This document shows, piece after piece, positions 1 through 18,101 of a DNA stretch of 64,000 bases. The DNA comes from Thermoflavifilum sp. (GTDB lineage Bacteria; Bacteroidota; Bacteroidia; Chitinophagales; Chitinophagaceae), in assembly GCA_023511875.1 (NCBI GenBank), contig JAIMAQ010000001.1:62001-126000 (forward strand), written 5' to 3'. The notes under the pieces were generated by a model, which worked only from the letters and a program-made list of their open reading frames with translations, was not told the DNA's origin and ran no database searches. Both the position numbers and the translations under genes were made by a program. Each line of letters begins with the position of its first letter. Position 1 is the stretch's first letter.

Positions 1-1146
1 CATCCTGTATCGGGTATGGCTCGTGAGCGAAGCAATTCTGGTGATATATGTACCACGGGCGGAACGGGCTTTGGCATCATGGCGATTTTAGTGGGCATCG
101 AAAGAAATTGGATTTCACGTACAGATGGATTGAATCGTATCCAACAAATTGTGCATTTTCTGAGCACTTCTTGTACGCGTTACCATGGGGCTTTTTCACA
201 TTGGATCAATGGTTCAACGGGTGCTACTATTCCCTTTAGTCGCTTAGATGATGGTGCCGATCTGGTAGAAACAGCTTATCTGATGATGGGCTTGTTGTGT
301 GCACGTCAATATTTTCAATCACCTGATAGCGATGAACAAACTCTTCGTGCGGCCATAGATAGCCTGTGGTATCGTGTAGAATGGACCTGGTTTCAACGCA
401 ATGGTCAATCGGTGTTGTACTGGCATTGGAGCCCCAATTATGGTTGGGCAATGAATTTGCCTATTCAAGGCTGGAATGAAGCATTGATCACTTATGTTTT
501 GGCTGCTAGTTCGCCTACTTATGCGATTAATAAACAAGTATATGATAGTGGCTGGGCAAAAAATGGTGCCATGCGTAACGGTCAAACATATGAAGGCATT
601 CGTTTGCCCTTGGGCCCTGCATTTGGGGGGCCTTTGTTCTTTGCACAATATTCATTTTTAGGCTTAAATCCACACGCATTAAGTGATGCTTATGCAAATT
701 ATTGGGAACAAAATGTGGCACATACACAAATAAATCATCAATATTGTGTAAATAATCCCTTACATTTTAATGGATATAGTACAGATTGTTGGGGGCTTAC
801 AGCAAGCGATGATCCTGCTGGATATGCCGTACATTCACCAACATCCGATAATGGAGTAATTGCGCCTACTGCTGCTATTGCTTCTCTACCGTATACACCC
901 GATGCTTCTATGCGGGCCATTCGTTTTTTCTATTATACCTTAGGTGATCAACTTTGGGGAACATATGGTTTTTACGATGCTTTTGATTTATCACAACCTT
1001 GGTTTGACCATCAATATCTCGCTATAGATCAAGCACCTCAAATCATCATGATTGAAAATGCACGGAGTGGATTGCTGTGGCGTTTGTTCATGAGTTGCCC
1101 CGAAGTGCAACAAGGATTGAAAACATTGGGATTTGTTGTACAATAA
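1..1146 (+). CDS. GH144-type endo-beta-1,2-glucanase-like protein (5' end cut by window)
   Basis: The frame is open from base 1, so the gene enters from outside the window; the internal ATG at 16 is not the start. The 381 visible residues align by eye along their whole length with the complete paralogue at 2911-4284, beginning at about its residue 59 (SGMARER in both). Shared blocks include LYWHWSP, YGWAMN, LITY.LAASSPT, NPLH, GLTAS and the C-terminal SGLLWRLFMSCPEVQ. This is the glucoamylase-like (PF10091) fold of family GH144, whose characterised members are secreted endo-beta-1,2-glucanases. A signal peptide would lie upstream of the window. It is followed after 12 nt by a GH43 gene and then by its paralogue, so the three are probably one transcript. 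The exact substrate is inferred from family membership only. Confidence 0.85.
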   Translation, partial: HPVSGMARERSNSGDICTTGGTGFGIMAILVGIERNWISRTDGLNRIQQIVHFLSTSCTRYHGAFSHWINGSTGATIPFSRLDDGADLVETAYLMMGLLCARQYFQSPDSDEQTLRAAIDSLWYRVEWTWFQRNGQSVLYWHWSPNYGWAMNLPIQGWNEALITYVLAASSPTYAINKQVYDSGWAKNGAMRNGQTYEGIRLPLGPAFGGPLFFAQYSFLGLNPHALSDAYANYWEQNVAHTQINHQYCVNNPLHFNGYSTDCWGLTASDDPAGYAVHSPTSDNGVIAPTAAIASLPYTPDASMRAIRFFYYTLGDQLWGTYGFYDAFDLSQPWFDHQYLAIDQAPQIIMIENARSGLLWRLFMSCPEVQQGLKTLGFVVQ

Positions 1147-1158
1147 ATACAATTTGCC

Positions 1159-2904
1159 ATGCATAAATACTTCATTCTTCTGCTCATCTTCTTGCCTACG
1201 AATATACTTTTCGCACAATCTTATCCACAAAAAACGTATTGCAATCCGTTGAATATAGATTATGGGTATTGCCCTATACCCGATTTTGTACAATGGGGTA
1301 AACATCGAACCACAGCCGATCCGGTGATTGTCAGGTATCAACAAGATTATTATTTGTTTTCAACCAATCAACAAGGATATTGGTGGAGCCATGATTTATC
1401 TCAATGGCATTTTATACATCGATCCTTTTTAAACGATATACAAAAGCAACGCACTTATGATGACCTATGTGCCCCAGCAGTATGGGTAATGGGCGATACC
1501 ATGCTGGTCTTTGGATCTACTTATAGTACTGATTTCCCCATCTGGATGAGTACCAACCCTAAATCAAATGTATGGAAACAGGCTATAGATTCATTTTTAA
1601 TAGGAGGTTGGGATCCCGATTTTTTTCTCGATGATGATGGGCGTTTGTACATGTACAATGGTAGCAGCAATACTTATCCCATTTATGGTGTAGAAATCGA
1701 TCGGCATACATTTAAACCCTTAAGTGCTCGGAAAGAGTTGTTGTTATTACAACCCTGGCGATATGGTTGGCAACGCTTTGGAGAATACAACGATAATATC
1801 TTTTTGGATCCATTTATCGAAGGTGCATGGATGACGAAACATAACGGAAAATATTATTTGCAATTTGCAGCACCTGGTACAGAGTTTAGTGGATATGCCG
1901 ATGGGGTAGCTGTTGGTGATCATCCCTTGGGTCCATTTGTTTTTCAATCCGATCCTTTAAGCTACAAGCCAGGCGGGTTTGCTCGAGGCGCTGGTCATGG
2001 GAGTACCTTTCAGGATCAACAGGGCCGGTGGTGGCATGTATCTACTATTCGCATTGCTGTAAAAAATAACTTTGAGCGACGCATAGGCATATGGCCAGCA
2101 GGATTTGATGAGGATGGTGTGATGTATGGCAATACCTCATTTGGCGATTACCCACATTATTTGCCCGATGCGGGAAATCGAGCCGGCCAGTTTACTGGAT
2201 GGATGTTGCTCAACTATGCTAAGCCCGTGCAAGTATCATCGACCTGGGGTGCGTATTCGGCTAATTTTGCTGTGGATGAAGATATTCGTACTTATTGGAG
2301 TGCAGCTACCGCCGATTCTGGCGAATGGATTATTTCAGATTTGGGAAACTTATCTACGATTCGTGCTATCCAGATCAATTATGCCGATCAAGATGCCCAA
2401 CTGATGGGTAAACAAACGGGTATTTATCATCAATACCAAATCTTCGATTCGCAAGATGGTGTGCATTGGCATTTACTCATCGACAAAAGTAAAAACTTAC
2501 ACGATGTACCACATGACTATGTGGAGTTGGATACGCCAGTGGAGGCTCGTTATATCAAAATGGTGAATATACACATGCCTACAGGCAAATTTGCGTTAAG
2601 CGGGCTACGTGTGTTTGGACATGGGCATGGCGAAAAACCCGATTCGGTAAAGCAATTCATGGTGTTGCGCACTGAAAAAGATAAACGTAGTGCCTGGATT
2701 CGATGGAGCCCTGTAGACAATGCCTATGCCTATCAAATATATTTCGGAACAGATCCACATAAATTATACAATAGCGTTATGGTGTATGCAGATAATCAAT
2801 ATTTCTTTGAAGCTATGGATAGCCAAAAAACTTATTATTTTACTATTGAAGCAATAAATGAAAATGGTGTTTCACCTAGAAAACAATGGATTGAAATAAA
2901 ATAA
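1159..2904 (+). CDS. Secreted GH43 glycosidase with discoidin (F5/8 type C) and FN3 domains
   Basis: 581 residues with an N-terminal signal peptide (cleavage near residue 20, LFAQ). Residues 45-330 form a five-bladed GH43 propeller: general base D54 in TADPVIV, pKa-modulating D152 in GGWDPDFFLDDDG, and general acid E221 in FIEGAW. Residues about 350-487 look like an F5/8 type C carbohydrate-binding domain (FAVDEDIRTYWSA, DLGNLSTIRAIQI, RYIKMVN). Residues about 495-581 form a fibronectin type III domain (WIRWSPVDNAYAYQIYFG). GH43 enzymes act on beta-xylosides, alpha-arabinosides or beta-galactosides; specificity cannot be read here. The gene lies between two GH144 genes with gaps of 12 and 6 nt, which points to one operon and one substrate, probably a beta-glucan with side decorations. 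Confidence 0.88.
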   Translation: MHKYFILLLIFLPTNILFAQSYPQKTYCNPLNIDYGYCPIPDFVQWGKHRTTADPVIVRYQQDYYLFSTNQQGYWWSHDLSQWHFIHRSFLNDIQKQRTYDDLCAPAVWVMGDTMLVFGSTYSTDFPIWMSTNPKSNVWKQAIDSFLIGGWDPDFFLDDDGRLYMYNGSSNTYPIYGVEIDRHTFKPLSARKELLLLQPWRYGWQRFGEYNDNIFLDPFIEGAWMTKHNGKYYLQFAAPGTEFSGYADGVAVGDHPLGPFVFQSDPLSYKPGGFARGAGHGSTFQDQQGRWWHVSTIRIAVKNNFERRIGIWPAGFDEDGVMYGNTSFGDYPHYLPDAGNRAGQFTGWMLLNYAKPVQVSSTWGAYSANFAVDEDIRTYWSAATADSGEWIISDLGNLSTIRAIQINYADQDAQLMGKQTGIYHQYQIFDSQDGVHWHLLIDKSKNLHDVPHDYVELDTPVEARYIKMVNIHMPTGKFALSGLRVFGHGHGEKPDSVKQFMVLRTEKDKRSAWIRWSPVDNAYAYQIYFGTDPHKLYNSVMVYADNQYFFEAMDSQKTYYFTIEAINENGVSPRKQWIEIK

Positions 2905-2910
2905 TGCATC

Positions 2911-4284
2911 ATGAAAAAATGGATTTTACCAGCTTGTATTGGATTCAGCTCGATATTGTTGATCATGGCTTTTGGACAGCGAAATGCAAGCACAATCGTT
3001 TATCAGAATAATGTTGATACGCTTTCTGATGAGGCTTTACTCGATAGTGTAGAGCGGGCTAGTTTTCGTTATTTCTGGGATGGTGCAGAACCTCGTAGTG
3101 GTATGGCTCGAGAGCGTATTCATATTGACGGCGAATATCCTGAACACGATCAAGATGTGATAACCGTTGGTGGAAGTGGGTTTGGCATGATGGCTATTCT
3201 TGCAGGCATTCATCGCGGATATATTACCCGATCGCAAGGTGTGCAACGATTACAACGCATAGTTAACTTTCTTTCTCATGCCGATCGTTTTCACGGAGCA
3301 TGGCCTCATTGGCTTTATCCCGATGGGCGTGTAAAACCATTTAGCCCCAAAGACGATGGTGGAGATATTGTGGAAACAGCATTTCTCATCCAAGGCTTAC
3401 TCAGTGCACGCCAGTTTCTTCGAGATGATCATCCCATCGAAAAACAAATCAAGCAAAGAATAGATTCCTTATGGAAATCGGTGGAATGGAGCTGGTATCA
3501 ACATGGGCAGCAAGTGCTGTATTGGCATTGGAGTCCGCACTATGGTTGGGCAATGAATTTTCCTATTCATGGGTATAATGAATGTTTAATAACTTATATT
3601 CTCGCTGCTTCTTCACCTACCCATCCTATTCCGGCATCTGCCTATCATCAAGGTTGGGCTTCTAATGGGAAAATTGTTTCGCCTTCCTGGCATTATGGAT
3701 ATGAATTGCAACTCTATCATCAAGGCAACGCTACACTTGGCGGCCCTTTATTTTGGGCACATTATTCTTATTTAGGATTAAATCCACATGGACTAAAAGA
3801 TCACTATGCCGATTATGAGAAAGAAAACTTCGACCAAACGATGATTAATTACTTATGGTGTGTCAACAATCCTTTGCATTATAAAGGATATGGCCCGCAC
3901 AATTGGGGATTAACGGCCAGTTATTCTATAGATGGTTATGCCGCTCACGCACCTGGTGAGCATACTGATTTAGGAGTGATCTCTCCCACTGCCGCAGTTT
4001 CGTCTGTGGTATATACACCCGCTCAATCGCTCCAAGCGATGCGATATTGGTTTACCCATCCAGAAATGAAAAATAAATTGTGGGGGCCTTATGGTTTTTA
4101 TGATGCATTTAGTGAAACGGCCAATTGGTATCCTAAGCGCTATTTAGCCATCGATCAAGGTCCTCAAGTGGTGATGATCGAAAATTATCGCAGTGGTTTG
4201 TTGTGGCGCTTGTTTATGAGTTGCCCGGAAGTGCAAAAAGGATTGAAAAAATTGGGATTTCAATATGAGGCGAGAAATAAATAG
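2911..4284 (+). CDS. GH144-type endo-beta-1,2-glucanase-like protein
   Basis: 457 residues, complete. The N-terminus (residues 1-22) is a hydrophobic signal peptide, so the enzyme is exported to the periplasm or beyond. From about residue 50 the (alpha/alpha)6-barrel of the glucoamylase-like PF10091/GH144 family starts (RASFRYFWDGAEPRSG). Typical blocks follow: VGGSGFGMMAIL, DIVETAFLIQGLL, LYWHWSPHYGWAMNFPIHG, LGGPLFWAHYSYLGLNP, CVNNPLHYKGYG, GLTASYSIDGY and SPTAA. Characterised GH144 proteins cleave linear beta-1,2-glucan to sophorooligosaccharides. It is a close paralogue of the truncated gene at the window start and follows the GH43 gene by 6 nt. Why two copies are kept is not visible; they may differ in chain-length preference. 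Confidence 0.88.
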   Translation: MKKWILPACIGFSSILLIMAFGQRNASTIVYQNNVDTLSDEALLDSVERASFRYFWDGAEPRSGMARERIHIDGEYPEHDQDVITVGGSGFGMMAILAGIHRGYITRSQGVQRLQRIVNFLSHADRFHGAWPHWLYPDGRVKPFSPKDDGGDIVETAFLIQGLLSARQFLRDDHPIEKQIKQRIDSLWKSVEWSWYQHGQQVLYWHWSPHYGWAMNFPIHGYNECLITYILAASSPTHPIPASAYHQGWASNGKIVSPSWHYGYELQLYHQGNATLGGPLFWAHYSYLGLNPHGLKDHYADYEKENFDQTMINYLWCVNNPLHYKGYGPHNWGLTASYSIDGYAAHAPGEHTDLGVISPTAAVSSVVYTPAQSLQAMRYWFTHPEMKNKLWGPYGFYDAFSETANWYPKRYLAIDQGPQVVMIENYRSGLLWRLFMSCPEVQKGLKKLGFQYEARNK

Positions 4285-4318
4285 AATCTTGTAGATTTGA
4301 TGGAAATACACCATTTCC

Positions 4319-4990
4319 ATGCGACGCCTGATATTGCTGGCTATTTTATGTGTTTGTGCATTTCTTTCAAATACCACTCATGCACAGCAAGAAAATTGGC
4401 CTTTTGAGAATGAAATTCGGCAATTTCAACACCAGGATAGTCTTCAAACACCACCTGAACATGCTATTTTATTTATAGGTAGTTCTTCATTTCGTATGTG
4501 GAAAACATTGCCCAAAGATTTTCCCGAGTTTACGATTATCAACAGAGGCTTTGGTGGATCTACACTTCCCGACATCATCCATTATGCGCATCAAATTATT
4601 TTTCCTTATCAACCCAAGCAAATTATTGTATACGGCGGAGATAATGATGCAGCTTCATCGTCGACCATTACAGTAGATAGCATATATAATCGCTTTGTTC
4701 GTTTATTTTATCTTGTAAGAGAAAAACTACCCAACACGAAAATCAGTTTTGTATCTATTAAGCCCAGCCCCCGAAGGCAACATCTCATGCCATTGATGGA
4801 TGCCGCCAATTGGAAGATTCAACAATTCTTGGCTCATCAGCCGCGAGCCGATTTTATTGATGTATATCATTTAATGTTAGACGAAAAGGGTTTACCAAGA
4901 AAAGATTTATTTCTTGATGACGGACTTCATATGAATCGCCAAGGATATGTAATTTGGATAAATGCCATTAAACCGCATCTGATTCTATAA
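4319..4990 (+). CDS. SGNH/GDSL-family hydrolase, secreted
   Basis: 223 residues with a signal peptide ending near residue 22 (THAQQ). Block I is ILFIGSSSF with the likely nucleophile S56; block II is the glycine in GFGGST; block III is YGGDND in place of the usual GxND; block V is DDGLHMN with D201 and H204 completing the triad. The form resembles the platelet-activating-factor acetylhydrolase-like SGNH group often found in polysaccharide loci as carbohydrate esterases. It follows the second GH144 gene by 34 nt in the same orientation. An acetyl- or succinyl-esterase acting on the glycan is a reasonable inference; succinylated beta-1,2-glucans exist, but this substrate is not shown by the sequence. 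Confidence 0.82.
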   Translation: MRRLILLAILCVCAFLSNTTHAQQENWPFENEIRQFQHQDSLQTPPEHAILFIGSSSFRMWKTLPKDFPEFTIINRGFGGSTLPDIIHYAHQIIFPYQPKQIIVYGGDNDAASSSTITVDSIYNRFVRLFYLVREKLPNTKISFVSIKPSPRRQHLMPLMDAANWKIQQFLAHQPRADFIDVYHLMLDEKGLPRKDLFLDDGLHMNRQGYVIWINAIKPHLIL

Positions 4991-5002
4991 AAAACATACA
5001 AT

Positions 5003-5284
5003 ATGTATTATGTATTGCTATACGATGTAGTAACTGATTATGTGGAACGCCGCAAGCCCTTTCGGGAGGCTCATCTCAAGCTGATACGGGAAATGTATGA
5101 GCAAGGATATGTGGTGATGGCCGGTGCGCTCGATAATCCACCCGATCGAGCGATTTTGGTATTTTATACAGCCGATACATCGATTATCAAGCAATTCATC
5201 GAGCGAGATCCTTATGTGCAAAATGGGCTCGTCACACATTGGGAAATCAGGCCCTGGAATGTGGTAGTGGGTGGAAAAGCATAA
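5003..5284 (+). CDS. YciI-like small protein
   Basis: 93 residues, one alpha/beta domain of the YciI type (PF03795): MYYVLLYDVV strand, conserved RRKPFREAHL helix containing H24, YVVMAGALDNPPDRAILVF, and the signature ERDPYVQNGLV with the conserved Asp. In this ferredoxin-like family the His and Asp line a putative active site, but no general reaction is established. No signal peptide, so cytoplasmic. It starts 12 nt after the SGNH gene and is probably the last gene of the same transcript, although its role in glycan use is unclear. Confidence 0.8.
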   Translation: MYYVLLYDVVTDYVERRKPFREAHLKLIREMYEQGYVVMAGALDNPPDRAILVFYTADTSIIKQFIERDPYVQNGLVTHWEIRPWNVVVGGKA

Positions 5285-5491
5285 GAATAATTTTCGTTTT
5301 TACTGTTGAACAGCAAAATGTCTATTTGATTGCTTATTTCAATAGTGATACGCTATGCTATATGAATGGGATGTTAGAGAAAATCATCATCACTCTTGAA
5401 CTTTCTTAAGTTTCCAGACAAAGAAAGAAGATTACATCATTCTCCATCAAATCAAACATCATCAATCATTTTCATGTCATCCTCTCACATC

Positions 5492-5667
5492 GACCTTCAG
5501 AAAAATGGCGTGAAGAAATGGGCGAACATGAGCGTAAAACGGAAAATGAGGTGAGTTATAGATAAAGTTGAAGTATCAAAAAGCTGATTCAGCATTACAC
5601 AAGCCCATAAGGGTATTTCATTTTCCGTAGCGAAATGGAGCCCATTTTAGCCATTTTTCTGGTAGTC
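5492..5667. repeat. 176-bp imperfect palindromic element, copy 1
   Basis: Left arm 5492-5550 starts GACCTTCAGAAAAATGG; right arm 5616-5667 ends CCATTTTTCTGGTAGTC. The reverse complement of the right arm matches the left arm in four blocks in the same order (CAGAAAAATGG, AAATGGGC, ACGGAAAATGA and short links). The centre, about 65 nt, is not palindromic but is conserved between copies (ATCAAAAAGCTGATTCAG). Copies 2 and 3 have exactly the same length. Confidence 0.85.
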
Positions 5668-5681
5668 TTGAACTTTCTTTG

Positions 5682-5713
5682 CTTCTTTCTTTGTTTCAAG
5701 ACAAAGAAAGAAG
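5682..5713. repeat. 32-bp hairpin repeat, copy 1
   Basis: Perfect inverted repeat: 13-bp arm CTTCTTTCTTTGT, 6-nt loop TTCAAG, then ACAAAGAAAGAAG. One strand of the stem is all pyrimidine except one G. No T-run follows, so it is not an ordinary terminator. It sits 14 nt after the end of palindrome copy 1. Confidence 0.85.
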
Positions 5714-5725
5714 GAACATGCCCCA

Positions 5726-5789
5726 GCTATTTTTCTGGCAGTCTTGAATTTTCTTTGCTTCTTTCTTTGTGTCAAGACAAAGAAAGAAG
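5726..5789. repeat. Duplicated right half-unit (palindrome right tip plus hairpin)
   Basis: The tip CTATTTTTCTGGCAGTC (5727-5743) and a complete hairpin (5758-5789, 13-bp stem, loop GTCAAG) repeat the preceding right end at a 76-bp period without a matching left arm. It looks like a local tandem duplication of the right half of the unit. Confidence 0.75.
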
Positions 5790-5849
5790 GATACATCATT
5801 CTTCATCAAATCAAACATCATCAATCTTTTTCATATCTTCTCCCCAAAT

Positions 5850-6025
5850 GACCTTCAGAAAAATGGCGTAAAGAAATGGGCGAACATGAGCGTGAAACGG
5901 AAAATGAGATGGGATGTAGATAAGAGTTGAAATATCAAAAAGCTGATTCAGTATATACAAGCTCATAAGAATGTTTCATTTTCCGTAGCGAAATGAAGCC
6001 CATTTTAGCCATTTTTCTGACAGTC
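5850..6025. repeat. 176-bp imperfect palindromic element, copy 2
   Basis: Starts GACCTTCAGAAAAATGG and ends CCATTTTTCTGACAGTC, 176 bp as in copy 1. Differences are mostly substitutions, with compensating one-base indels in the centre (TAAGAGTTGA; GTATATACAA). The arms and the CTGATTCAG centre are kept. Hairpin copy 6040-6071 follows after 14 nt. Confidence 0.85.
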
Positions 6026-6039
6026 TTGAATTTTCTTTG

Positions 6040-6071
6040 CTTCTTTCTTTGTTTCAAGACAAAGAAAGAAG
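6040..6071. repeat. 32-bp hairpin repeat, copy 3
   Basis: Identical stem and loop to the copy at 5682-5713 (13-bp arms, loop TTCAAG), at the same 14-nt distance from its palindrome. Confidence 0.85.
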
Positions 6072-6121
6072 ACTACAACGTTCTCTATAAAATCAAACAT
6101 CATCAATCATCTTCTCACATT

Positions 6122-6150
6122 GACCTTCAGAAAAATGGCGTGAAGAAATT
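6122..6150. repeat. Solo left end of the 176-bp element
   Basis: GACCTTCAGAAAAATGG and about 12 following bases match the left arm, then the sequence diverges 70 nt before the metG stop. It is a truncated copy. Confidence 0.7.
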
Positions 6151-6222
6151 AGCAAATCTTCGTTTATTAAAATTAATATTCAGATAGTGCTGTTGCTTTT
6201 CCCGTTCACTTCGATACCATGT

Positions 6223-8316
6223 TCAGCTCACTTTTCCTCCTGGTGGAATGTTGTCGCTAGGAGTCACGAAATGGAGTTTTCCTTGATCATCTTCGGCCAT
6301 CAAGATCATGCCTTGTGAGACAATGCCTTTGAGCTTGCGTGGTGCCAGGTTGGCCACTACCACTACTTGTTGACCAATAATTTGATCGGGTTGAAAATAT
6401 TGGGCTATACCCGATACGATAGTACGTTGCTCGAAGCCCAGGTCGACCGTGAGTTGCAAGAGCTTATCGGCTTGTTTTACTTTTTCTGCGGCAATGATAG
6501 TGCCCACGCGCAAGTCGAGTTTATCAAAATCATCATAGTTGATGGTGGGTTTTACGGTGGCTTGGGTGGGTTGGGGCGTGGAAACTGCAGTGGAGGTGGC
6601 TGAAGCTTGTTCGGCTGTTTGCAACTTTTGGATTTGTTTTTCGATTTCTGCATCTTCAATTTTTCGGAACAGCAGCTCGGGAGCTCGTAAGCTATAGCCT
6701 ACGCTCAGTAGTTTCAGGCTACCGGCATTTTCCCATTCCAACATGCGATCCACCACTTTCAATAAGTAACAGATTTTGCGAGCAGTGGCAGGTAAAAATG
6801 GATTTAAGAAGATGGCTAAGTTGGCCGTTAGCTGCAGGCACATGAAAATAGTATTGTCGATGATGGGCTGGTTGACCAGCTGTGTGGCTTGATCTTTGGC
6901 TAGCAGCCAGGGGGCTTTTTCTTGCAGATATTTATTGCCTTCGCGAGCTACATTCATCACTTCCATTAATGCGTCGCGAAAATGAAATTGTTCGATAGCA
7001 TTTTCGATGTTATGCTTGGCTTTCTGGAGATAAGCGTAGAGGTGCTGATCGGCTTCATCCTGCACTTCTTCATGAAAAGGTGGCACCTTACCCTTGCAGA
7101 GTTTGTGCATCAATACCAGAGTGCGGTTCACAAAATTGCCCAAGATTGCGACCAATTCGTTGTTGTTTCGGTCTTGAAAATCCTTCCAAGTGAAATCGTT
7201 GTCTTTCGTTTCGGGCATATTGGCACAGAGCACATAGCGAAGTACATCTTGGCCACGTTGTTCGGGAGGGAAGTCATGGATATATTCATGCACCCATACA
7301 GCCCAATTGCGGCTGGTAGACACTTTTTGACCTTCTATGTTGAGAAATTCATTGGCAGGTACGTTGTCGGGCAATACAAAATCGCCATGAGCCTTTAGCA
7401 TGGCTGGGAAAATGATGCAATGAAACACGATATTGTCCTTACCAATGAAGTGGATCAGCCGGGTATCCTCGCGTTGCCACCAATCTTTCCAGGTATCGGG
7501 CAACAATTCTTTAGTAGCGGAAATATACCCAATAGGCGCATCAAACCACACATACAGTACTTTTCCCTCAGCCTCTGGCAGGGGTACTTTCACGCCCCAC
7601 TGGCTATCGCGTGTCATAGCGCGCGGTTGTAAGCCATGATCGAGCCAGCTTTTGCATTGCCCATACACATTGGCCTTCCATTCCCGATGTTGTTCCAGGA
7701 TCCATTTGCGCAGCCAAGGTTCAAACCGCTGCAAGGGCATGTACCAATGCTTGGTTTTCCGTTTCAAGGGCACTGAGTCGCTCAAGGCCGAGCGGGGATT
7801 AATGAGTTCATCTGGGCTAAGCGAGGAACCACATTTTTCGCATTGGTCGCCATAAGCTTTTTCGTAGCCACATACGGGGCAGGTGCCCACAATGTAGCGG
7901 TCGGCCAGGAACATTTGTTTTTCTTCGTCGTAAAATTGCTCGGTTTCTTTTACTTCAAAATATCCTTCGTTGTAAAGTTTTTTAAAAAAAGCCTGAGCCG
8001 TTTCGTGGTGAATGGGTTTGGAGGTACGAGAAAAAATATCAAACGAAATATCTACCGCAGCAAAGCTATCGCGGATCAGGGTATGGTAATGGTCTACGAT
8101 AGCTTGAGGCGTAGTGTTTTCTTGCAAAGCTTTGATGGTGATGGGTACGCCGTGCTCGTCGGTACCGCAAATAAATTTTACAGGCAATTTTTTCGCTCGC
8201 AAGTATCTCACATAAATATCGGCTGGCAAATAACATCCTGCTAAATGACCAATATGAATAGGACCATTGGCATATGGCAAAGCGGCAGTAACCAAGTATC
8301 GTTTAAATTCAGGCAT
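6223..8316 (-). CDS. metG: Methionyl-tRNA synthetase
   Basis: 697 residues; charges tRNA-Met with methionine in the cytoplasm. Class I signature HIGH at residues 21-24 ([10 protein letters not shown]), a zinc knuckle with C146, C149, C159 and C162 (CPVCG and CEKCG), and the KMSKS-equivalent KVSTS at 331-335. An anticodon-binding helical domain follows. Residues about 590-697 form a C-terminal Trbp111-like tRNA-binding domain ([11 protein letters not shown]), present in dimeric bacterial MetRS. The linker at 565-590 is rich in Thr, Ala and Gln. Length is normal for this type. A TAATTTTG element lies 7 nt before the ATG, implying a very short or absent leader. The gene is convergent with the glycan locus across the repeat cluster. 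Confidence 0.97.
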
Positions 8317-8323
8317 AGTGGCA

Positions 8324-8331
8324 CAAAATTA
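8324..8331 (-). promoter_or_regulatory. Bacteroidota -7 promoter element for metG
   Basis: TAATTTTG on the minus strand matches TAnnTTTG; only 7 nt separate it from the metG ATG. No TTG at the usual distance upstream was found. Confidence 0.5.
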
Positions 8332-8430
8332 CAGGAATAGATTGGCTTGTAGGGTTTTAGCAGATGAGGAATGATCAAAAACTTGCAAAGTAGAGCAAGA
8401 GTCCAGAAATTGCCCTATTAAATTTTCATT

Positions 8431-9381
8431 ATGCGTATACCACCATATTTACAACCGGGCGATCGCATTGGGATATGTTGTCCAGCCAGTAAGATGCAGG
8501 CGAGTGTGGCGTTGTATGCAGCCGAAGTGGTTCAGGGTTGGGGTTTTGAAGTGATTTTGGGAGAAACGGTGGGCACTTCTTATCACAATTTTTCTGCGCC
8601 TGATGCCGTTAGGCTGCGCGATTTACAACGCATGTTAGACGATGATTCCATACGCGCAATATGGTTTGGCCGAGGGGGATATGGCACTATTCGCATCTTG
8701 GATCAGCTCAATTTTCAGCACTTCATAGAGGCTCCTAAATGGCTTTGTGGGTATAGCGATATTACTGCATTACACATGCATGTACATCGGCATTATCAAA
8801 TTGCCAGTTTGCATGCGTTGATGTGTAGTGGTATCACGGAACAAACGAGAGAAGATCCTTATGTGCAGAGCCTGCGACAGGCCTGGCTGGGAATACCGCA
8901 ACGATATACTTGTAATGCCCATCCACTCAATCGCCTGGGGCAAGCCAGTGGAGTGCTTATTGGAGGCAATTTATCGTTATTGGTCAATCTTTCAGGCACG
9001 CGTTCACAACCCAATACAGCTGGTAAGATTTTGTTTCTTGAAGATGTGGGCGAATATACATATCATATTGACCGTATGTTGTACAACTTGAAAAGAGCCG
9101 GTTGGCTACATGAATTGGCCGGACTGATTGTGGGGGCTTTTACTGATTTAAAAGACACAGAGGAACCATTTGGCCAGTCTGTAGAAGAAATCATTTATGC
9201 ACAGGTCAAAGATTACCAATATCCTGTAGCTTTTGGTTTCCCCGTTGGGCATCAACCAGCCAATTATGCGTTAAAAATAGGGTGCCCGTATGTGTTGAAG
9301 GTAACTGATCAAGGTGTTGAGCTGAGGGAAATAGATCATTTAGGAAATTCTTCGTTAGAAAATGCTGTAGAATCGCTTTAA
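8431..9381 (+). CDS. LD-carboxypeptidase (peptidase family S66)
   Basis: 316 residues. Family S66 serine peptidases remove the terminal D-Ala from murein tetrapeptides during cell-wall recycling; MccF-like members cleave microcin C7. Seen here: nucleophile S109 in CGYSDITALH, E204 in LFLEDVGEYTYHIDRML and H274 in GFPVGHQPANYALKIG, which together form the Ser-Glu-His triad; also the conserved WFGRGGYG block near residue 78. No signal peptide, consistent with a cytoplasmic recycling enzyme. Length is typical for LdcA. It is transcribed alone and its stop overlaps the stop of the convergent histidine kinase by 4 nt. Confidence 0.92.
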   Translation: MRIPPYLQPGDRIGICCPASKMQASVALYAAEVVQGWGFEVILGETVGTSYHNFSAPDAVRLRDLQRMLDDDSIRAIWFGRGGYGTIRILDQLNFQHFIEAPKWLCGYSDITALHMHVHRHYQIASLHALMCSGITEQTREDPYVQSLRQAWLGIPQRYTCNAHPLNRLGQASGVLIGGNLSLLVNLSGTRSQPNTAGKILFLEDVGEYTYHIDRMLYNLKRAGWLHELAGLIVGAFTDLKDTEEPFGQSVEEIIYAQVKDYQYPVAFGFPVGHQPANYALKIGCPYVLKVTDQGVELREIDHLGNSSLENAVESL

Positions 9382-10721
9382 TGATTTGAAGAAATCTCAT
9401 CGGCAAGTGTGCATACAATTTCAAATTTGGTGCCTTTACCGAGAGCACTTTCTACCTTAATTTTCCAGCCATGTGCATCTACAATTGATTTTACATATGA
9501 TAAACCCAAACCAAATCCTTTCACGTCGTGCAAGTTGCCGGAATGTGCGCGATAAAATTTTTCGAAGATATGTTTTACCGTTTGCTTATTCATGCCCACA
9601 CCTTTATCTGCTATGCTTAAGATGAGTTGATGATGAGAATGGTTGCGAGTACGAATATCGATGAAAGGTTTCCCTTTAGAATATTTTAACGCGTTATCGA
9701 TTAAGTTGGAAAGCATGTGGATGAAATGGTTTTGATCGGTAAGCACGAGAGAAGAACTCGCTTCTAATGCTGTGTGTACTTCAGCTTGACGACTTTGGAA
9801 CTGAAGTGCAAAGCTATTTAAGGTTTGTTGAATCAATTGATGGATATCGTGAGGCTGCAGGTTGAGTTCTAATTCATGCCTATCGAGTGCCGAAGATTCG
9901 AGCACGGTTTCTATATGTTTATACATCTTTTGGCTTTCTTCTTTAATCACACTTGCCAGTGGCTTGATTTTTTGCGGATCAGAAAGAATTTTTTCGTTGC
10001 AAATGGTATCGAGGGCCAGATTGATGGTAGCCAGCGGAGTTTTGAGTTCGTGAGAAATATTGTTGATAAAATCAGATTTGATTTCAGAGATTTTCTTTTG
10101 TCGTATTAAGGCATAAATGGTTAAGGCAAAGGCTGTAATGATGATGAGGGTAAACAAGATTGATCCTGTGATCATCCAACCCATTGAGCGGGCAATGCTC
10201 ACCTGCGTAACTGGAATGGTGATGACCAGAGTTTCTGCGCTAGGGATAAAGCCAGCTGCATCGGAGAGCTGGATGAGGCATTGAATATTGTGCAAGGTGT
10301 CTTGAATCGTTTGTATGATATGCGGAGAGCGCACCAAATAAGAAGGAAACATGCTGAGGTTGGAAATCACTGCAAATTCGTAGGGTGTATGCAAGCCTTT
10401 TTTTTCAAAAACCTGATGGATAACGGCACTAATCTCGTCGGCCGTGAATTTTTGGCTTACGGGAATTTGGCTATTGAAGCGATTGGCCAACATTTGCCAG
10501 GGCGAATCATCGCTATCGGTATGCGTAGATAAAACGGTTAATCCATTTCCGCTGCCGTGGACGAGCTGTTCGCGGATGGCATCGGTTGCTTCAACTAATT
10601 TTTGCCGCAGTTCTTCTTTTTTAATTAAAGCAGCATTCTTGATCCAGCTCATCTGGATGTAAATGATCCCAAGCAACGAAAGCGTAATGAGTATGACGAT
10701 AGCAGGGAACAAGCGTTTCAT
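9378..10721 (-). CDS. Membrane sensor histidine kinase, orphan
   Basis: 447 residues. Two membrane segments (about 4-25 and 182-206) flank a periplasmic sensor region of about 150 residues. There is no clear HAMP domain; the HisKA helix begins directly after a short linker. Phospho-acceptor H224 in NISHELKTPLATI, N box with N343 (SNLIDNALKYS), G1 box D372KGVGM, F box FEKFYRA and G2 box GFGLGLSYV at 402-410 are all intact, so the kinase should be active. No response regulator is next to it in the window, unlike many two-component pairs. TAAATTTG lies 5 nt before the ATG. A non-coding stretch with repeats lies upstream. Confidence 0.92.
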   Translation of the reverse strand: MKRLFPAIVILITLSLLGIIYIQMSWIKNAALIKKEELRQKLVEATDAIREQLVHGSGNGLTVLSTHTDSDDSPWQMLANRFNSQIPVSQKFTADEISAVIHQVFEKKGLHTPYEFAVISNLSMFPSYLVRSPHIIQTIQDTLHNIQCLIQLSDAAGFIPSAETLVITIPVTQVSIARSMGWMITGSILFTLIIITAFALTIYALIRQKKISEIKSDFINNISHELKTPLATINLALDTICNEKILSDPQKIKPLASVIKEESQKMYKHIETVLESSALDRHELELNLQPHDIHQLIQQTLNSFALQFQSRQAEVHTALEASSSLVLTDQNHFIHMLSNLIDNALKYSKGKPFIDIRTRNHSHHQLILSIADKGVGMNKQTVKHIFEKFYRAHSGNLHDVKGFGLGLSYVKSIVDAHGWKIKVESALGKGTKFEIVCTLADEISSNH

Positions 10722-10726
10722 CTACA

Positions 10727-10734
10727 CAAATTTA
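10727..10734 (-). promoter_or_regulatory. Bacteroidota -7 promoter element for the histidine kinase
   Basis: TAAATTTG on the minus strand, exact TAnnTTTG match, 5 nt before the ATG; implies a leaderless or nearly leaderless mRNA. No upstream TTG at normal distance. Confidence 0.5.
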
Positions 10735-10830
10735 CTGGCTTAGGTGAGTTTATTCCTATGCTCGATTTCTGGGTGAAATGATTTAACGTGGTCTTAACTG
10801 GTTAGTTGCACGAAATTTGCACCTTATAGG

Positions 10831-10899
10831 ATGGATTTTCATACAGTTGGATTTTGGTTGATATGGAGGCCTTTGGCCTCCTTTTTTGTGTATGGGTAG
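10831..10899 (+). CDS. Possible 22-residue small ORF in front of a terminator
   Basis: ATG at 10831 to TAG at 10899. The terminator stem at 10865-10881 lies inside the frame, which would suit a leader peptide or simply a short non-coding transcript ending there. No good ribosome binding site and no known family. Likely function unknown; it may be a chance frame. Confidence 0.2.
   Translation: MDFHTVGFWLIWRPLASFFVYG
10865..10887 (+). terminator. Rho-independent terminator-like hairpin
   Basis: GGAGGCC stem, TTT loop, GGCCTCC, then six T. On the plus strand this is a classical intrinsic terminator, yet no plus-strand gene ends just upstream (the nearest, the LD-carboxypeptidase, ends 1.5 kb earlier). 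It suggests a short plus-strand RNA starting after about 10735. Confidence 0.6.
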
Positions 10900-10981
10900 T
10901 GCGTTTGCAGGGTAATTCTTAGAGCAAATTTGTGGGATAATCGGTAATGTTGTCGTATGAAATAATGGCTTTTCTCCAACC

Positions 10982-11016
10982 GACCTTCAAAAAAATTACC
11001 CATTTTTCTGGCAGTC
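10982..11016. repeat. Collapsed copy of the palindromic element (both tips only)
   Basis: The left tip GACCTTCA and A-run are joined directly to the right tip CCATTTTTCTGGCAGTC, with the 140-nt middle missing. A degenerate hairpin half (about 11017-11057) follows. Confidence 0.65.
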
Positions 11017-11117
11017 TTGAACTTTCTTAAGTTTTCAGAGAAATAAAATAAAGAAGAATATAACGTTCTCCATCAAATCAAACTTCCAGTAATCTTTTTC
11101 ATATCTTCTCCCCAAAT

Positions 11118-11293
11118 GACCTTCAGAAAAATGGCGTGAAGAAATGGGCGAACATGAGCGTGAAACGGAAAATGAGGTGGGATGTAGATAAAGTTGAAGT
11201 ATCAAAAAGCTGATTCAGCATTACATAAGTCCATAGGGGTGTTTCATTTTCCGTAGCGAAATGGAGCCCATTTCAGCCATTTTTCTGACAGTC
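11118..11293. repeat. 176-bp imperfect palindromic element, copy 3
   Basis: Starts GACCTTCAGAAAAATGG, ends CCATTTTTCTGACAGTC, 176 bp and in the same orientation as copies 1 and 2. The centre keeps ATCAAAAAGCTGATTCAGC. It is very close to copies 1 and 2, although 5 kb away. Confidence 0.85.
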
Positions 11294-11307
11294 TTGAATT
11301 TTCTTTG

Positions 11308-11339
11308 CTTCTTTCTTTGTTTCAAGACAAAGAAAGAAG
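11308..11339. repeat. 32-bp hairpin repeat, copy 4
   Basis: Same 13-bp stem and TTCAAG loop, 14 nt after palindrome copy 3. A degraded second right half-unit follows (about 11350-11406), as after copy 1. Confidence 0.85.
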
Positions 11340-11440
11340 GAACATACCCTGGCTATTTTTTCTAACAATCTTGAATTTTCTTAAGTTTCCAGACAAAGAA
11401 AGAAAGCCATAGATAAAGCTTTCTCGACCATATCCATTAT

Positions 11441-13924
11441 TTAAACGGGATCTACATCCGGGATGATTCGAACGGCTTTGAATTCTTTATTTTCTTGTAG
11501 AGATGCACAGCGGGCTAAAATATGTTCTTTATATGCTTGCAAGCGAGATAACTGGCGAGGTAATCGAATCAAAATCTCTTGCAAATATTGATTGCGAATG
11601 CGACTCACCGGTGGTGATGCTGGGCCAATAATAGGCTGATATGCAAGGTAAGATTCTTGTGCAAATACTTCATGAAGACTACGTGCAAGCGTATAAGCAG
11701 CAGCTATCACTTTTTCCTGCTGAGCATGCTTCAGCATAATCTTCATGAGCCGCACAAATGGTGGGTAAGCAAATTGTTCACGTGTTTCAATCTCCGTTTG
11801 AAAAAAAGCAGCATAATCGTGAGACATGACCCATTGTAATACGGGATGCTGAAGTCTATATGCTTGAATAATCACCATTCCTTTCTCCCCTTTTCTGCCA
11901 GCACGCCCACTTACTTGCTCCATGAGTTGAAAAGCCCGTTCATTTACCCGAAAATCAGGATAACTGAGTAAGCTATCGGCCAGTAAAATCCCTACTAATC
12001 CAACAGATTCAAAATCCAATCCTTTTACCACCATTTGCGTACCCACCAATATATCGATACGACGTTGTTCAAATTGGGTAATCAAACGGTGAAAACTATC
12101 TTTTCTCCGCATGGTATCTAAGTCCATACGAGCGATACTGGCTTTAGGAAACAACATATGTAATTCATCTTCCACTTTTTCGGTGCCAAAACTTTTATCG
12201 ATCATAGCATGACTACCACAGGCCTGGCATTGCTTGATGGGAGCATATTGTCGACCACAATAATGACATATTAGCTTGTTTTCTGCTTTATGATAAGTTA
12301 ATGCCACATCACACTGTTGGCAATGTGGTATCCAGCCACACACCTGGCAAATCTGTGAAGGCGCATAGCCCCTGCGGTTTTGAAATAAAATCACCTGTTT
12401 ATTATCCTGCAAGGTTCGGCGAATATGCTCTTCTAACAATGGAGTAATATGTCGATCTTGTCGTTGTTGCTTAGCAATAGTGCGCATATCGGCCAATACC
12501 ATATCAGGCAGTGCGATTTGTCCATATCGTTCGCGCAATGCCACATATCCGTATTTACCTTGTTGTGCTTGAAAATAAGTTTCTACTGCTGGGGTGGCCG
12601 ATCCTAAGATCACTTTTGCTTGTAACAGATGGGCATAATAGATGGCCGCATCACGCGCATGGTAGCGTGGTGCAGGATCTTGTTGTTTAAACGAGGCATC
12701 ATGTTCCTCGTCAACAATGATGAGCGACAACTTTATAAAAGGCAACCATAGGGCCGAGCGCGATCCTACAACTACTTGTAACTGACCCGATCTCACTTTA
12801 TTCCACAATTCCACCCTTTCATTAGGATTAAGTCGAGAATGGTAAATACCAATATGAGGACCTAGATATTGTTGAAGCCTGCGAATCATTTGTGCCGTGA
12901 GGGCTATTTCTGGCAACAGGTATAAGACTTGTTCGCCACGGGCTATTGCTTCTTGCATCAACGATACATACAACAAAGTTTTCCCGCTCGATGTAATACC
13001 ATGCAACAACACCACTTGTTTCTCTTGCAAAAAATCTCGTATTTGTTGAAGGCATTTTTGTTGTGCAATGGTCAGGCGAATAGGCTGTATCTCCCCATCA
13101 AATGTAAAAGACAAGCGATCAATAGCTTGTGTATACTCTTGAAAGACACCTTTCTCGATCAATGCATGCAATTGCGCATGAGTCGCTCCTGCTTGCTGGA
13201 GTAAATCTTTTTTCTTCACAAAACCTTCTTTTTGCTTGAGTTCATAAAACTTCATCAACAACTGCAATTGTTTAGGGGCACGTTCGAGAGTATCAAACAA
13301 GCGATGCAAAGCTTGTTCGTCATTATATTCAGGTGACAACGCAACAAAACTTTCCATTTTAGGCCGATACAATTCTTTGAGCGATTCATCGGCAATACAA
13401 ATATGTTGATCGAGTAAACTTTTGATGATGGTATGTGCCGATGCGGTAGAATGATCACTCAAAATTTGTTGTACCTCAGCTATGCTCAAAGCATTTTTCA
13501 TCGACAAAGCCTCTACAACCAAATAAGCTTCATCTGAAAGTTGTGTTGCTAATGCTTGCAAAGCATTGGGGTGAGCATAGGCAGGATCGAGCAGCAAAAC
13601 TGTTTCACTACTCAGCTTTAAATGAGCAGGCAATGCCATATTCATCACCTCGCCTTCGGTGCACGCATAATATTGCGCTACCCATTCCCAAAATTGTAAT
13701 TGATGCTGCCAGACAACAGGGTGATCATCGAGCTGCGACAAAATAGGTTTTACAACATAAGCCTCAGGTGGCCGATGGTGAATATGCTTGACGATAGCTG
13801 CATATTTACGCCGGCTCCCAAATTGCACAATTACACGCATACCAGGTTGTAAATGCATCTCATCTGGAATACGATAGGTGTATAATCGAGGCAAAGACAA
13901 GGGCAAAATGACATCGGCAAACAT
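11441..13924 (-). CDS. priA: Primosomal protein N' (PriA helicase)
   Basis: 827 residues; 3'-5' DNA helicase that restarts collapsed replication forks. N-terminal DNA-binding region (1-100, GMRVIVQFGSRRKYAAIV), Walker A at 309-316 (GITSSGKT), DEEH box with the PriA aromatic-rich loop (SFKQQDPAPRYHARD), and two zinc-binding clusters of Cys pairs (CQVCGWIPHCQQC, CHYCG, CQACG). Helicase motif VSGRAGRKGEKG lies near residue 650. Length is somewhat above E. coli PriA and usual for Bacteroidota. The priA start faces the aminotransferase promoter; TAATTTTA 6 nt before its ATG is close to a -7 element. Confidence 0.96.
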   Translation of the reverse strand: MFADVILPLSLPRLYTYRIPDEMHLQPGMRVIVQFGSRRKYAAIVKHIHHRPPEAYVVKPILSQLDDHPVVWQHQLQFWEWVAQYYACTEGEVMNMALPAHLKLSSETVLLLDPAYAHPNALQALATQLSDEAYLVVEALSMKNALSIAEVQQILSDHSTASAHTIIKSLLDQHICIADESLKELYRPKMESFVALSPEYNDEQALHRLFDTLERAPKQLQLLMKFYELKQKEGFVKKKDLLQQAGATHAQLHALIEKGVFQEYTQAIDRLSFTFDGEIQPIRLTIAQQKCLQQIRDFLQEKQVVLLHGITSSGKTLLYVSLMQEAIARGEQVLYLLPEIALTAQMIRRLQQYLGPHIGIYHSRLNPNERVELWNKVRSGQLQVVVGSRSALWLPFIKLSLIIVDEEHDASFKQQDPAPRYHARDAAIYYAHLLQAKVILGSATPAVETYFQAQQGKYGYVALRERYGQIALPDMVLADMRTIAKQQRQDRHITPLLEEHIRRTLQDNKQVILFQNRRGYAPSQICQVCGWIPHCQQCDVALTYHKAENKLICHYCGRQYAPIKQCQACGSHAMIDKSFGTEKVEDELHMLFPKASIARMDLDTMRRKDSFHRLITQFEQRRIDILVGTQMVVKGLDFESVGLVGILLADSLLSYPDFRVNERAFQLMEQVSGRAGRKGEKGMVIIQAYRLQHPVLQWVMSHDYAAFFQTEIETREQFAYPPFVRLMKIMLKHAQQEKVIAAAYTLARSLHEVFAQESYLAYQPIIGPASPPVSRIRNQYLQEILIRLPRQLSRLQAYKEHILARCASLQENKEFKAVRIIPDVDPV

Positions 13925-14044
13925 GGCCTAAAATTAGGTGAATTCCCTTCCCGATGAACAATGGACAAGTGCCAGAATATGCAAATTGGCCTCTACGATA
14001 AAGGAACAAACATTTTTCGTTTCTCTTGATGCTATATTTATTCC

Positions 14045-14052
14045 TAACTTTG
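14045..14052 (+). promoter_or_regulatory. Promoter of the aminotransferase gene
   Basis: TAACTTTG with TTG at 14026-14028, 16 nt upstream. A start site some 5-10 nt downstream would leave about 30 nt of leader before the ATG at 14088, and it excludes the earlier in-frame start at 13938. Confidence 0.6.
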
Positions 14053-14087
14053 CGCCTGATTTTTTGAACGTTTTTAATGAATTTTCC

Positions 14088-15278
14088 ATGCAGCTTGCAC
14101 AACGTCTAAACCGCATCACCGAATCGCAAACCATTCGAATGACAAAATTGGGGCGTGAGTTGAAGGCTAAGGGCATTGATGTGATCGACTTAAGCATTGG
14201 AGAACCCGATTTCGACACTCCTGCTCCGATTAAGGAAGCCGCCAAAAAGGCTCTCGATGAAGGATACACGCACTACCCACCCGTTCCAGGCTACCCAGAA
14301 CTTCGGAAAGCCATTGCCGAAAAACTTAAAAAAGAAAATCATTGGGAAGTAAGTCCTGAACAAATTGTGGTGTCGAATGGAGCCAAGCAAGCCATTGCCA
14401 ATGTGATGCTCAGCTTGCTCGATCCCGGTGATGAAGTGATTATTCCTACGCCCTATTGGGTCTCGTATGCCGATATTACCAAGCTGGCCGAAGGCACGCC
14501 AGTATTCATTCATTGTGGTTTTGAACAACAATATAAACTTCGCCCCGAACAGCTGGAAAAAGCCATCACTGCAAAAACCAAAGCCATCATCTATTCTTCA
14601 CCCAGTAACCCTACAGGTGCATTGTATAGCAAAGAAGAGCTGGCAGCATTGGCCGAAGTGCTCAGGCATCATCCACAAGTGTTTATCATTTCCGATGAAA
14701 TTTATGAATATATCAATTACGTGGGCAAGCACGAAAGTATTACTCAATTTCAAGACTTGATACCACGAATAATTGTGATCAATGGATTCAGCAAAGGCTT
14801 TGCGATGACGGGTTGGCGATTGGGATATTCGGTATCGCCACTTCCTATTGCTAAGGCTTGCGATACCATTCAGGGGCAGTTTACCTCGGGAGCTAATGCA
14901 TTTGCCCAACGAGGGGCTTTGTTTGCATTAGAAAGCAATCGAGATGCTTGCCAGCACATGGTCAACGCTTTTCGAGAAAGAAGAGATTTTCTGGTTAAAG
15001 CTCTACAAAGCATTCCAGGCTTGCGTTTTCACGTACCAGAAGGTGCATTTTACTTGTTTCCTGAAGTGAAATCTTATTTTGGTAAATCTGATGGCCAGCA
15101 AGTCATTCAAAATGCCGATGATTTAGCTATGTATTTGCTCAATAATGCCTATGTGTCTACGGTCACAGGTAGTGCATTCGGCGAGCCAGATTGTATTCGG
15201 CTTTCTTATGCCAATTCACTCGACAAATTGCAACAAGCCGTAGAACGTATTCAGAAAGCTTTGAAAGCCCTTCACTAA
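14088..15278 (+). CDS. Pyridoxal-phosphate aminotransferase, aspartate aminotransferase-like
   Basis: 396 residues, fold type I class I aminotransferase. Seen: SIGEPDFDTP near residue 36, NGAKQAI at 98 (phosphate site), SPSNPTGALY with N174, SDEIYEYI with D203 and Y206, and Schiff-base K236 in INGFSKGFAMTGWRLGYS. This resembles the Thermus/Bacillus-type aspartate (or prephenate/glutamate) aminotransferases that transfer amino groups between Asp and 2-oxoglutarate. I start at 14088 because the frame's longer start at 13938 would overlap the promoter and has no family counterpart in its first 50 residues. Transcribed alone, divergent from priA. Confidence 0.92.
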   Translation: MQLAQRLNRITESQTIRMTKLGRELKAKGIDVIDLSIGEPDFDTPAPIKEAAKKALDEGYTHYPPVPGYPELRKAIAEKLKKENHWEVSPEQIVVSNGAKQAIANVMLSLLDPGDEVIIPTPYWVSYADITKLAEGTPVFIHCGFEQQYKLRPEQLEKAITAKTKAIIYSSPSNPTGALYSKEELAALAEVLRHHPQVFIISDEIYEYINYVGKHESITQFQDLIPRIIVINGFSKGFAMTGWRLGYSVSPLPIAKACDTIQGQFTSGANAFAQRGALFALESNRDACQHMVNAFRERRDFLVKALQSIPGLRFHVPEGAFYLFPEVKSYFGKSDGQQVIQNADDLAMYLLNNAYVSTVTGSAFGEPDCIRLSYANSLDKLQQAVERIQKALKALH

Positions 15279-15295
15279 TGGGCTATGAAGTGCTT

Positions 15296-16387
15296 TTATG
15301 TTGAAGAATTTGTTTTCTTGATGCGGATTTTTTTCACTCGCATTGGCTTGGTATCGTCGCTTAAAAGAATTGACCAGGCTCGCATGCTATCGATTTGATC
15401 AAAAACGATCTTAGCGATCGCAATCATAGGAATGGCTAAAAACATACCCGCAATACCCCACATCATTTCACCGACAACCACGCCAATGATGGTGATCAAC
15501 ACATTTATCTTTACCTGTGAGCCCACAATTCTGGGCATGAGAAAATTGGCATCGAAAGTATGTACGGCCACCATAGTAATGATGAGTGCCAATGTTTTGC
15601 TCACGCTACCACTAGCAAAAGTGATGAGTGCACAAAGCACCATAGAAGAATAAATTCCCACATAAGGTATGATATTAAGAATAGCCGTTATCACTGCCAG
15701 CAGCCAGGCGTAAGGAATACCCAAAATCCAAAAAACACTTCCGAGAATTACCGCAATAGCCACAATTTCCATGAGTAAACCCAATACATATCTTTTCACT
15801 ACCCGTTCTATTTGCTTCAAAGTATCTCGTACTCGTGAATGATGATCTTCATGAAATAGGTGTAATAAAAATCGGGTGAGTAAACGTCTATAATACAACA
15901 ACAAAAACATGTAAATGGGAATAAAAATGATAAACAATAATGTAGAAGAAACTGATACCACAGTATGACCAATGATAGCGGTCGAAGAAATGTTTTGCGT
16001 AGCAATCTGAATCAAATCTTGACCACTCCGAATTTTCAAATGAAACCTTTTGTTCAACCATTCTTGAACACTTTGTAGTGTGGTAATCAACTGCTGCTGA
16101 AGCGCTGGCCAGTCGCGCGCCATAAGCCTGACTTGTGAGGCCACAAAATATAATACGCCGAGCAATACGCCAATAAATAAAATAATAGAAAGCAATACAG
16201 CCAAGCTCCTGGGTATATGCCATTTCTCCATAAAACGATTAATGGGCAATAGCAACATGGAAAATAGAAAGGCAAATAACAAGGGAGAAAGCAAAGGCTG
16301 CCCTAAATTTATTAAATAACCCATCAATACGATACTCAACAATATGGCTGCAAGCCTAATGAAAAAAGGAGGCGAGGTAGTATTCAT
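15296..16387 (-). CDS. AI-2E family transporter (PF01594)
   Basis: 363 residues, integral membrane. About eight hydrophobic segments: two near residues 8-50, one at 58-85, a soluble stretch of about 60 residues, then a cluster from 145 onward including a glycine/proline-rich block (IPYAWLLAVITAILNIIPYVG) typical of this family. The C-terminal tail is basic (KPMRVKKIRIKK). The family name comes from a proposed autoinducer-2 exporter; other members are Na+/H+ antiporters, so the substrate is unknown. It is the last gene of a probable MlaD-like, OstA-like, AI-2E series, 37 nt behind the OstA-like gene. Confidence 0.88.
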   Translation of the reverse strand: MNTTSPPFFIRLAAILLSIVLMGYLINLGQPLLSPLLFAFLFSMLLLPINRFMEKWHIPRSLAVLLSIILFIGVLLGVLYFVASQVRLMARDWPALQQQLITTLQSVQEWLNKRFHLKIRSGQDLIQIATQNISSTAIIGHTVVSVSSTLLFIIFIPIYMFLLLYYRRLLTRFLLHLFHEDHHSRVRDTLKQIERVVKRYVLGLLMEIVAIAVILGSVFWILGIPYAWLLAVITAILNIIPYVGIYSSMVLCALITFASGSVSKTLALIITMVAVHTFDANFLMPRIVGSQVKINVLITIIGVVVGEMMWGIAGMFLAIPMIAIAKIVFDQIDSMRAWSILLSDDTKPMRVKKIRIKKTNSST

Positions 16388-16424
16388 GATGACCGAAAAT
16401 TATGCCAGTGAATATAGAAAAAGT

Positions 16425-18077: not shown

Positions 18078-18101
18078 ATGCTGATAAGCAGCAAGTTAAG
18101 C

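Follow-up and report, generated by a model that had tools for sequence, protein, structure and literature searches.

Eukaryotic SINEs share the 3' tail of a LINE, and the attC sites of integrons are imperfect palindromes. MITEs are short, ORF-free, multi-copy and intergenic, and they end in inverted repeats. The REP (or REPIN) sequences are intergenic folded repeats that are thought to be moved in trans by Y1 transposases (RAYTs). In the parts of two papers that we consulted, the REP of a RAYT is a hairpin of 20-40 bp with a GT[AG]G foot (PMC3733652, PMC6006769). Also, the subclass 2.6 genes of Bacteroidetes are described as having "atypical structures" that lack this foot, both adjacent to the gene and genome-wide (PMC6006769, consulted in part). 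Here we describe a family of repeats that resembles each of these systems in part.

The window that we analyzed is a stretch of 64,000 nucleotides from the genome of a Thermoflavifilum species. As originally predicted, its forward strand carries three copies of a 176-bp imperfect palindrome, all in the same orientation, at 5492-5667 (copy 1), 5850-6025 (copy 2), and 11118-11293 (copy 3). Copy 1 shares 94% identity with copy 3 and 90% with copy 2. The repeat unit is longer than 176 bp, however: the palindrome (the head, or A) is followed by a 46-nt 3' module (the tail, or H), for a total of about 222 bp. In copy 1, A has the arms P1, P2, and P3 and a variable apex, and its tail (5667-5713) has the inverted repeat S1 (CTTGAA/TTCAAG) interleaved with S2 (CTTCTTTCTTTGT/ACAAAGAAAGAAG). 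The heads and tails of the other copies were delimited from the sequence and by comparing the repeats; the tails lie at 6025-6071 (copy 2) and 11293-11339 (copy 3). There are also pieces of the unit, all on the forward strand. The 3' end of A with a second H lies at 5725-5789, and A's first 28 nt stand alone at 6122-6149. More degenerate pieces, which we recognized by reading the sequence and which belong to repeat family D3, are an H upstream of copy 1 (5395-5430), a short-headed copy (the ends of A without its centre) with its H (10982-11056), and a 3' arm of A with its H (11350-11405). The copies and pieces lie between ORFs, in the intervals 5285-6222 and 10722-11440, and the copies have no ORF of their own, again as predicted.

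The original prediction also held that such similar neighbors must be either mobile or kept alike by gene conversion. Mobility is probable (see below), but local gene conversion is not required. The nearest relatives of copies 1 and 3 lie elsewhere in the genome, and copy 2 is equally close (0.941) to copy 3 and to a copy on another contig. The likeness of neighbors is not special, so gene conversion between them is possible but unneeded.

When the Thermoflavifilum genome (2.7 Mb in 35 contigs) was searched with copy 1, at least 49 matches were found (E ≤ 0.001), far beyond chance and as the original prediction implied. This is a lower bound, as scoring covered 40 of the 77 candidates from the first look. 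Positions 1-176 are fully covered in 23 of the 49 matches. Several matches touch the ends of contigs. The repeats are probably where the assembly breaks, which is another reason to view the count as a lower bound. In some short-headed copies, the ends of A are kept and its centre is gone, and H is still at the 3' end. Among 21 copies, nucleotide diversity reaches 0.150 for the apex, compared with 0.053 for the internal loops, 0.027 for the stems, and 0.017 for the stem of H. In other words, the stems are conserved while the apex drifts. The centre of the palindrome had been described as conserved, but the apex is its least conserved part.

We then examined the distribution of the family. A search for the unit in 59 genomes matched four of them: the Thermoflavifilum genome itself, G033 (the whole unit, in another genus of the same family), and G017 and G054 (the H part). 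A+H was absent from all four of the congeners searched. A broader, family-wide DNA search (E ≤ 1e-4, with two candidates scored per genome) matched at least 47 of 394 genomes, including Thermoflavifilum's. Finally, we searched with a covariance model of H (R1) under strict filters, scoring no more than 15 candidates in each genome. It matched at least 97 of 395 genomes from the phylum, in 48 of 170 genera (E ≤ 1e-4). About a quarter of the sampled Bacteroidota thus carry H, yet we found neither an Rfam match nor a description in the literature, in line with the original view that no named family has these ends. The elements resemble Rfam RNAs in having conserved stems, internal loops, and a pseudoknot topology, but no family matches them: there was no hit at the gathering score in the window, and at E ≤ 1 in 16 loci there was none over the elements. 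Searching the literature for strings from A+H returned only unrelated papers, and the unit is not described in the parts that we consulted of PMC9723704, PMC3733652, PMC6006769, and PMC12306157.

In other families of Bacteroidota, the letters of A+H have changed and the pairing is kept. Even in distant relatives, the skeleton is legible as GRCC, arm P1, GCGTTAAG, arm P2, a second GTTAA, and P3. This is often followed by CTGTTTGAG, a hairpin, and CGAGTTC. Then come the returning arms (with TTTTAGC and AGCC) and H.

The predicted fold agrees with this conservation. In copy 1, RNAfold pairs the arms as the original prediction described, and of the five cores that we tried, four fold into the same bent hairpin. 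(The fifth, from G360, folds differently with RNA parameters and in the same way with DNA parameters.) The stems also covary between genera, which is the compensatory change that the original prediction looked to. In an alignment of A+H from 12 Chitinophagaceae sequences, 90.8% of cells are paired, versus 45.4-53.3% if the partners are slid, and 28 pairs have changes on both sides, versus 15.4 (standard deviation 2.3) in shuffles. The structure was derived from one of the 12 sequences, which somewhat favors that structure. Conversely, two rows from G033 are mis-ended (one has an extra base and one is shifted by about six bases) and the row from G208 lost one base near its start; these faults lower the pairing counts rather than raise them. 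One helix from RNAfold, helix 3, was refuted: just 22.2% of its cells are paired, and the stretch is a purine-rich internal loop.

H consists of the two interleaved inverted repeats, S1 and S2, in pseudoknot order. Among 92 distinct rows, which were aligned by a model without the S1 pairs, 96.0% of S1 cells and 98.9% of S2 cells are paired, and the last pair of S1 varies freely (31 AU, 20 UA, and 13 CG). (The 20 rows that R1 was built from came mostly from a script that required pairing, so the pairing in the R1 alignment is not independent evidence.) As a complete pseudoknot, H would be geometrically strained, because its 6-nt loop would be wholly paired. S1 and S2 may therefore alternate rather than coexist.

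The same tail is attached to more than one head. By reading the sequences, we found H 3' of at least one head of another kind, the hairpin GGGGAGG...GTTTGCC, and further unlike heads are visible by eye in G743/G480/G610, in G510/G622/G783, and in G124/G290/G247. (These classes rest on reading: a regular expression left 81 of 157 sites unclassified, and many of those are missed copies of A.) We also compared the 24 nt before H to the sequence upstream, using one site from each of 54 genomes. The site's own upstream complement beats all 53 swapped arms in 18 of the 54 genomes, and at most three swapped arms equal it in 28. In the other 26 genomes, the upstream complement is weak or absent, and several of these have a local hairpin inside the 70 nt that were excluded. 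The sites for this test, and for the gene-orientation and strand tests below, were chosen by a script that demanded exact pairing in H, so these tests say nothing independent about that pairing.

Which strand folds? We counted the stem positions that lie one step away from the majority Watson-Crick pair. There are 102 G.T positions and 47 A.C positions (p = 8e-6), although positions and copies within one genome are not independent events. (G646 was dropped from this count as it has fewer than three copies, and G492 had no counted departure.) G.T is ahead in 10 of 11 genomes and tied in the other. By origin, the AT-derived pairs have 62 G.T and 23 A.C, and the GC-derived pairs have 40 and 24 (p = 0.06), so that in the GC-derived class alone the apparent wobble excess is weak. 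On the A-to-H strand, the G.T/A.C counts are 244/147, versus 130/210 on the opposite strand; if G.U is forbidden in the fold, they are 172/103 versus 107/168. Because the excess reverses on the opposite strand, the method does not create it. The groups in the strand test include tandem copies and heads other than A (G480 and G743). An early and smaller count in the Thermoflavifilum genome gave nine to one by cells and five to one by positions; the G033 rows in that count were noisy and misaligned. Statistically, the larger counts support the A-to-H strand as the one that is probably under selection to fold. The simplest reading is that this strand folds while single-stranded, which could be as RNA or as single-stranded DNA alike.

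Copies are also found on a phage contig. Two IMG/VR contigs have the A+H unit (they are 99.98% identical to each other over 5,135 bp), and a third contig has H. The contig L298 encodes a terminase, a head protease, a major head protein, an endolysin, and a tail fibre (from PHROGs). It carries two copies that point the same way and are 89.6% alike across 270 bp, as well as a partial third. Among our pattern scans of viral contigs, one gave three contigs, one gave L298 alone, and two gave none. Using blastn, we found no match for the Thermoflavifilum unit among plasmids or named phages, for the G677 unit among plasmids, or for 2.2 kb of L298 among named phages.

Our best explanation is that A+H is a family of non-autonomous mobile elements, moved in trans by a putative mobiliser that acts through the folded A-to-H strand. 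We would give this reading about an even chance of being correct. It would account for the many copies, for their mostly intergenic placement (82 of 92 sites overlap no predicted ORF of 100 amino acids), for the covariation and the phage copies, and for the fact that the likeness between copies ends where A+H does. Specifically, copies within G710, G034, G646 (just two copies were compared), G739, and G618 resemble each other only within the unit: their likeness sets in roughly where A starts and stops roughly where S2' ends. A different explanation is that A+H is a functional RNA that was dispersed by recombination and kept because it is useful, for instance by protecting the 3' ends of mRNAs or in termination or attenuation. 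The conserved internal loops and the strand-specific tolerance of wobbles would fit, as would the phage copies, because the two copies and the partial third in L298 lie in the late region and follow the direction of the neighboring genes. Indeed, strong pairing could equally serve an RNA function of a host or a phage. But among the 92 sites, we saw no preference for gene direction (52 sense and 48 antisense), which speaks against a role in mRNA. Also, the family's absence from all four congeners is not expected of a useful RNA, and because likeness stops at the start of A, there is no shared upstream promoter in the five genomes that we compared. We consider a functional RNA to be quite unlikely. 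A further reading, that A+H are REP-type repeats of Y1 transposases, perhaps akin to the atypical structures of subclass 2.6, strikes us as very improbable. The phylum and the pattern of copies do fit, and footless structures are known beside subclass 2.6 genes (PMC6006769, consulted in part). H also tends to co-occur with Y1_Tnp (PF01797), if weakly (odds ratio 2.1, p = 0.008), so a role for Y1 proteins in some genomes is conceivable. Y1_Tnp is present in 270 of 395 genomes, but it is missing from 20 of the 97 genomes with H, and the Thermoflavifilum genome has no match to it. Nor did we find H (E ≤ 0.05) within about 1.5 kb of any of 30 Y1 loci, one of which is from a genome, G001, without H in the R1 search. 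The flanks that we read of three genes with subclass 2.6 motifs (L208, L219, and L210) carry other short repeats instead. Furthermore, the units are 164-222 bp, not 20-40 bp, with a two-part build and a shared tail, and the GT[AG]G foot is absent from the unit ends that we read. We conclude that RAYTs are not the general mobiliser, and the original comparison to REPs is not supported.

The remaining alternative is that these are classical MITEs, that is, internally deleted insertion sequences that a DDE transposase moves as double-stranded DNA, with the folded core as a passenger. The original comparison to MITEs does hold in a related genus, g30 (G033 and G149), where A+H is enclosed by terminal inverted repeats and flanked by 9-bp target duplications. 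The frame motif GAATTAGGTATTTA (with at most one mismatch) occurs 53 times in G033 and 17 times in G149, versus 6 times in each for the reversed pattern. Among 15 framed elements, 9 have a perfect 9-bp duplication and 11 match at 8 or more of the 9 positions, while none of 210 swapped pairs of flanks match at 9 bp and none of 10,000 permutations reach the total. Judging from its sequence, the framed g30 element is a genuine MITE. In G579, too, copies are alike beyond the core (from about -259 to +87 around H). Yet 4 of the 15 framed elements have no clear duplication, and no frame of terminal inverted repeats is common to the copies in the five genomes above, where A+H ends with its folded core, or visible by eye in nine flanks from Thermoflavifilum. 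Unlike the interior of a MITE, the core itself seems to be under structural selection on one strand, and a passenger should not maintain compensatory, strand-specific pairing. For the family as a whole, the classical MITE reading is therefore unlikely. As for an autonomous element with the g30 frame, among 30 of the 70 listed motif places (loci L138-L167), there was no inverted pair more than 434 bases apart; the G033 assembly is in about 630 contigs. Two loci, L136 and L057, have long ORFs between two copies, in which we recognized no transposase by eye. We also compared G677 with G710, and found no insertion of a frameless A+H into a known empty site: one copy is ancestral and shared, and is broken in G710, and the other site is too diverged to read. 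Several copies in G033 have GC-rich hairpins nested in their loops.

If A+H is a family moved in trans, we propose that a protein or ribonucleoprotein would recognize the folded A-to-H strand, most likely via H, as H is the part that is shared, and that the recognized strand would be copied to new places. Unlike heads on one tail are expected if the mobiliser sees the tail. The different heads might use H in the way that SINEs borrow the tail of a LINE, and in g30, A+H would also have become enclosed in a DDE-type frame. A tentative and rather doubtful extension of this analogy is that H acts as a ticket for a putative machine that copies the folded strand into new intergenic sites, with phages carrying the elements between species. 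The point of likeness with SINEs is a 3' module that several heads share. A SINE-like element would also need a reverse transcriptase that uses the tail, and A+H is bacterial. If true, H on unlike heads would give bacteria an equivalent of the SINE/LINE relationship. Either way, the family offers an abundant and testable case in which spread may be tied to a folded single strand, with the known Y1 enzymes not nearby.

Numerous copies might grow into arrays. Such clusters of imperfect palindromes in one orientation resemble the attC sites of integrons, but integron arrays have cassettes, and reading L198 and L199 ruled this out. Between neighboring copies there is mostly no ORF of 90 amino acids, and we saw no cassettes: L199 has six H matches at 11845-13385 and no such ORF inside, and L198 has a single one at 8128-9652, which overlaps a copy. 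The arrays may also serve as sites of rearrangement, for which the window is suggestive, no more. Comparing 20 kb of it to three congeners gave five blocks with four breakpoints; two of the breakpoints have no array, and both of the window's arrays fall in the other two.

When positions 1-20000 of the window are compared with three congeners, synteny breakpoints coincide with both arrays of A+H, the ~222-bp repeat unit (176-bp imperfect palindrome head A, then 46-nt tail H), which lie in the gaps between ORFs at 5285-6222 and 10722-11440. Two other synteny breakpoints in this region are without a repeat. Separately, two similar genes lie at 16-1146 and 2911-4284 (repeat families D5 and D7), with another ORF between them. 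In the same genome, several arrays are neighboured by a second dispersed motif that resembles all or part of CACTTCGATACGCTTCGCTACTCAGTGACC (in the flanks of L005, L013, L014, L019, and L020).

H is also preceded by a second class of head, at loci L121, L122, L132-L134, L136, L137, and L172. These heads follow the pattern GGGGAGG.CG..GGC..GGCAAAACG..CGGAG..GGGTTTGCC, or variants of it, and then H.

In G033, a related genome of the Chitinophagaceae, several differing GC-rich hairpins are inserted into the loops of A+H (L072, L081, L083, L085, and L086), and the insertions leave the arms of A+H undestroyed. By their appearance, these hairpins resemble REPs.

The IMG/VR phage contig L298 has two copies of A+H within its late-gene region, with H on the minus strand at 4505-4541 and 6980-7016. 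By eye, a terminator-like hairpin comes after each copy.

The Y1 transposase genes at L208, L210, and L219 are similar to subclass 2.6. (The flanks of those at L208 and L210 contain short inverted repeats, such as GGTGCGAGCATCTTGCTCG.)
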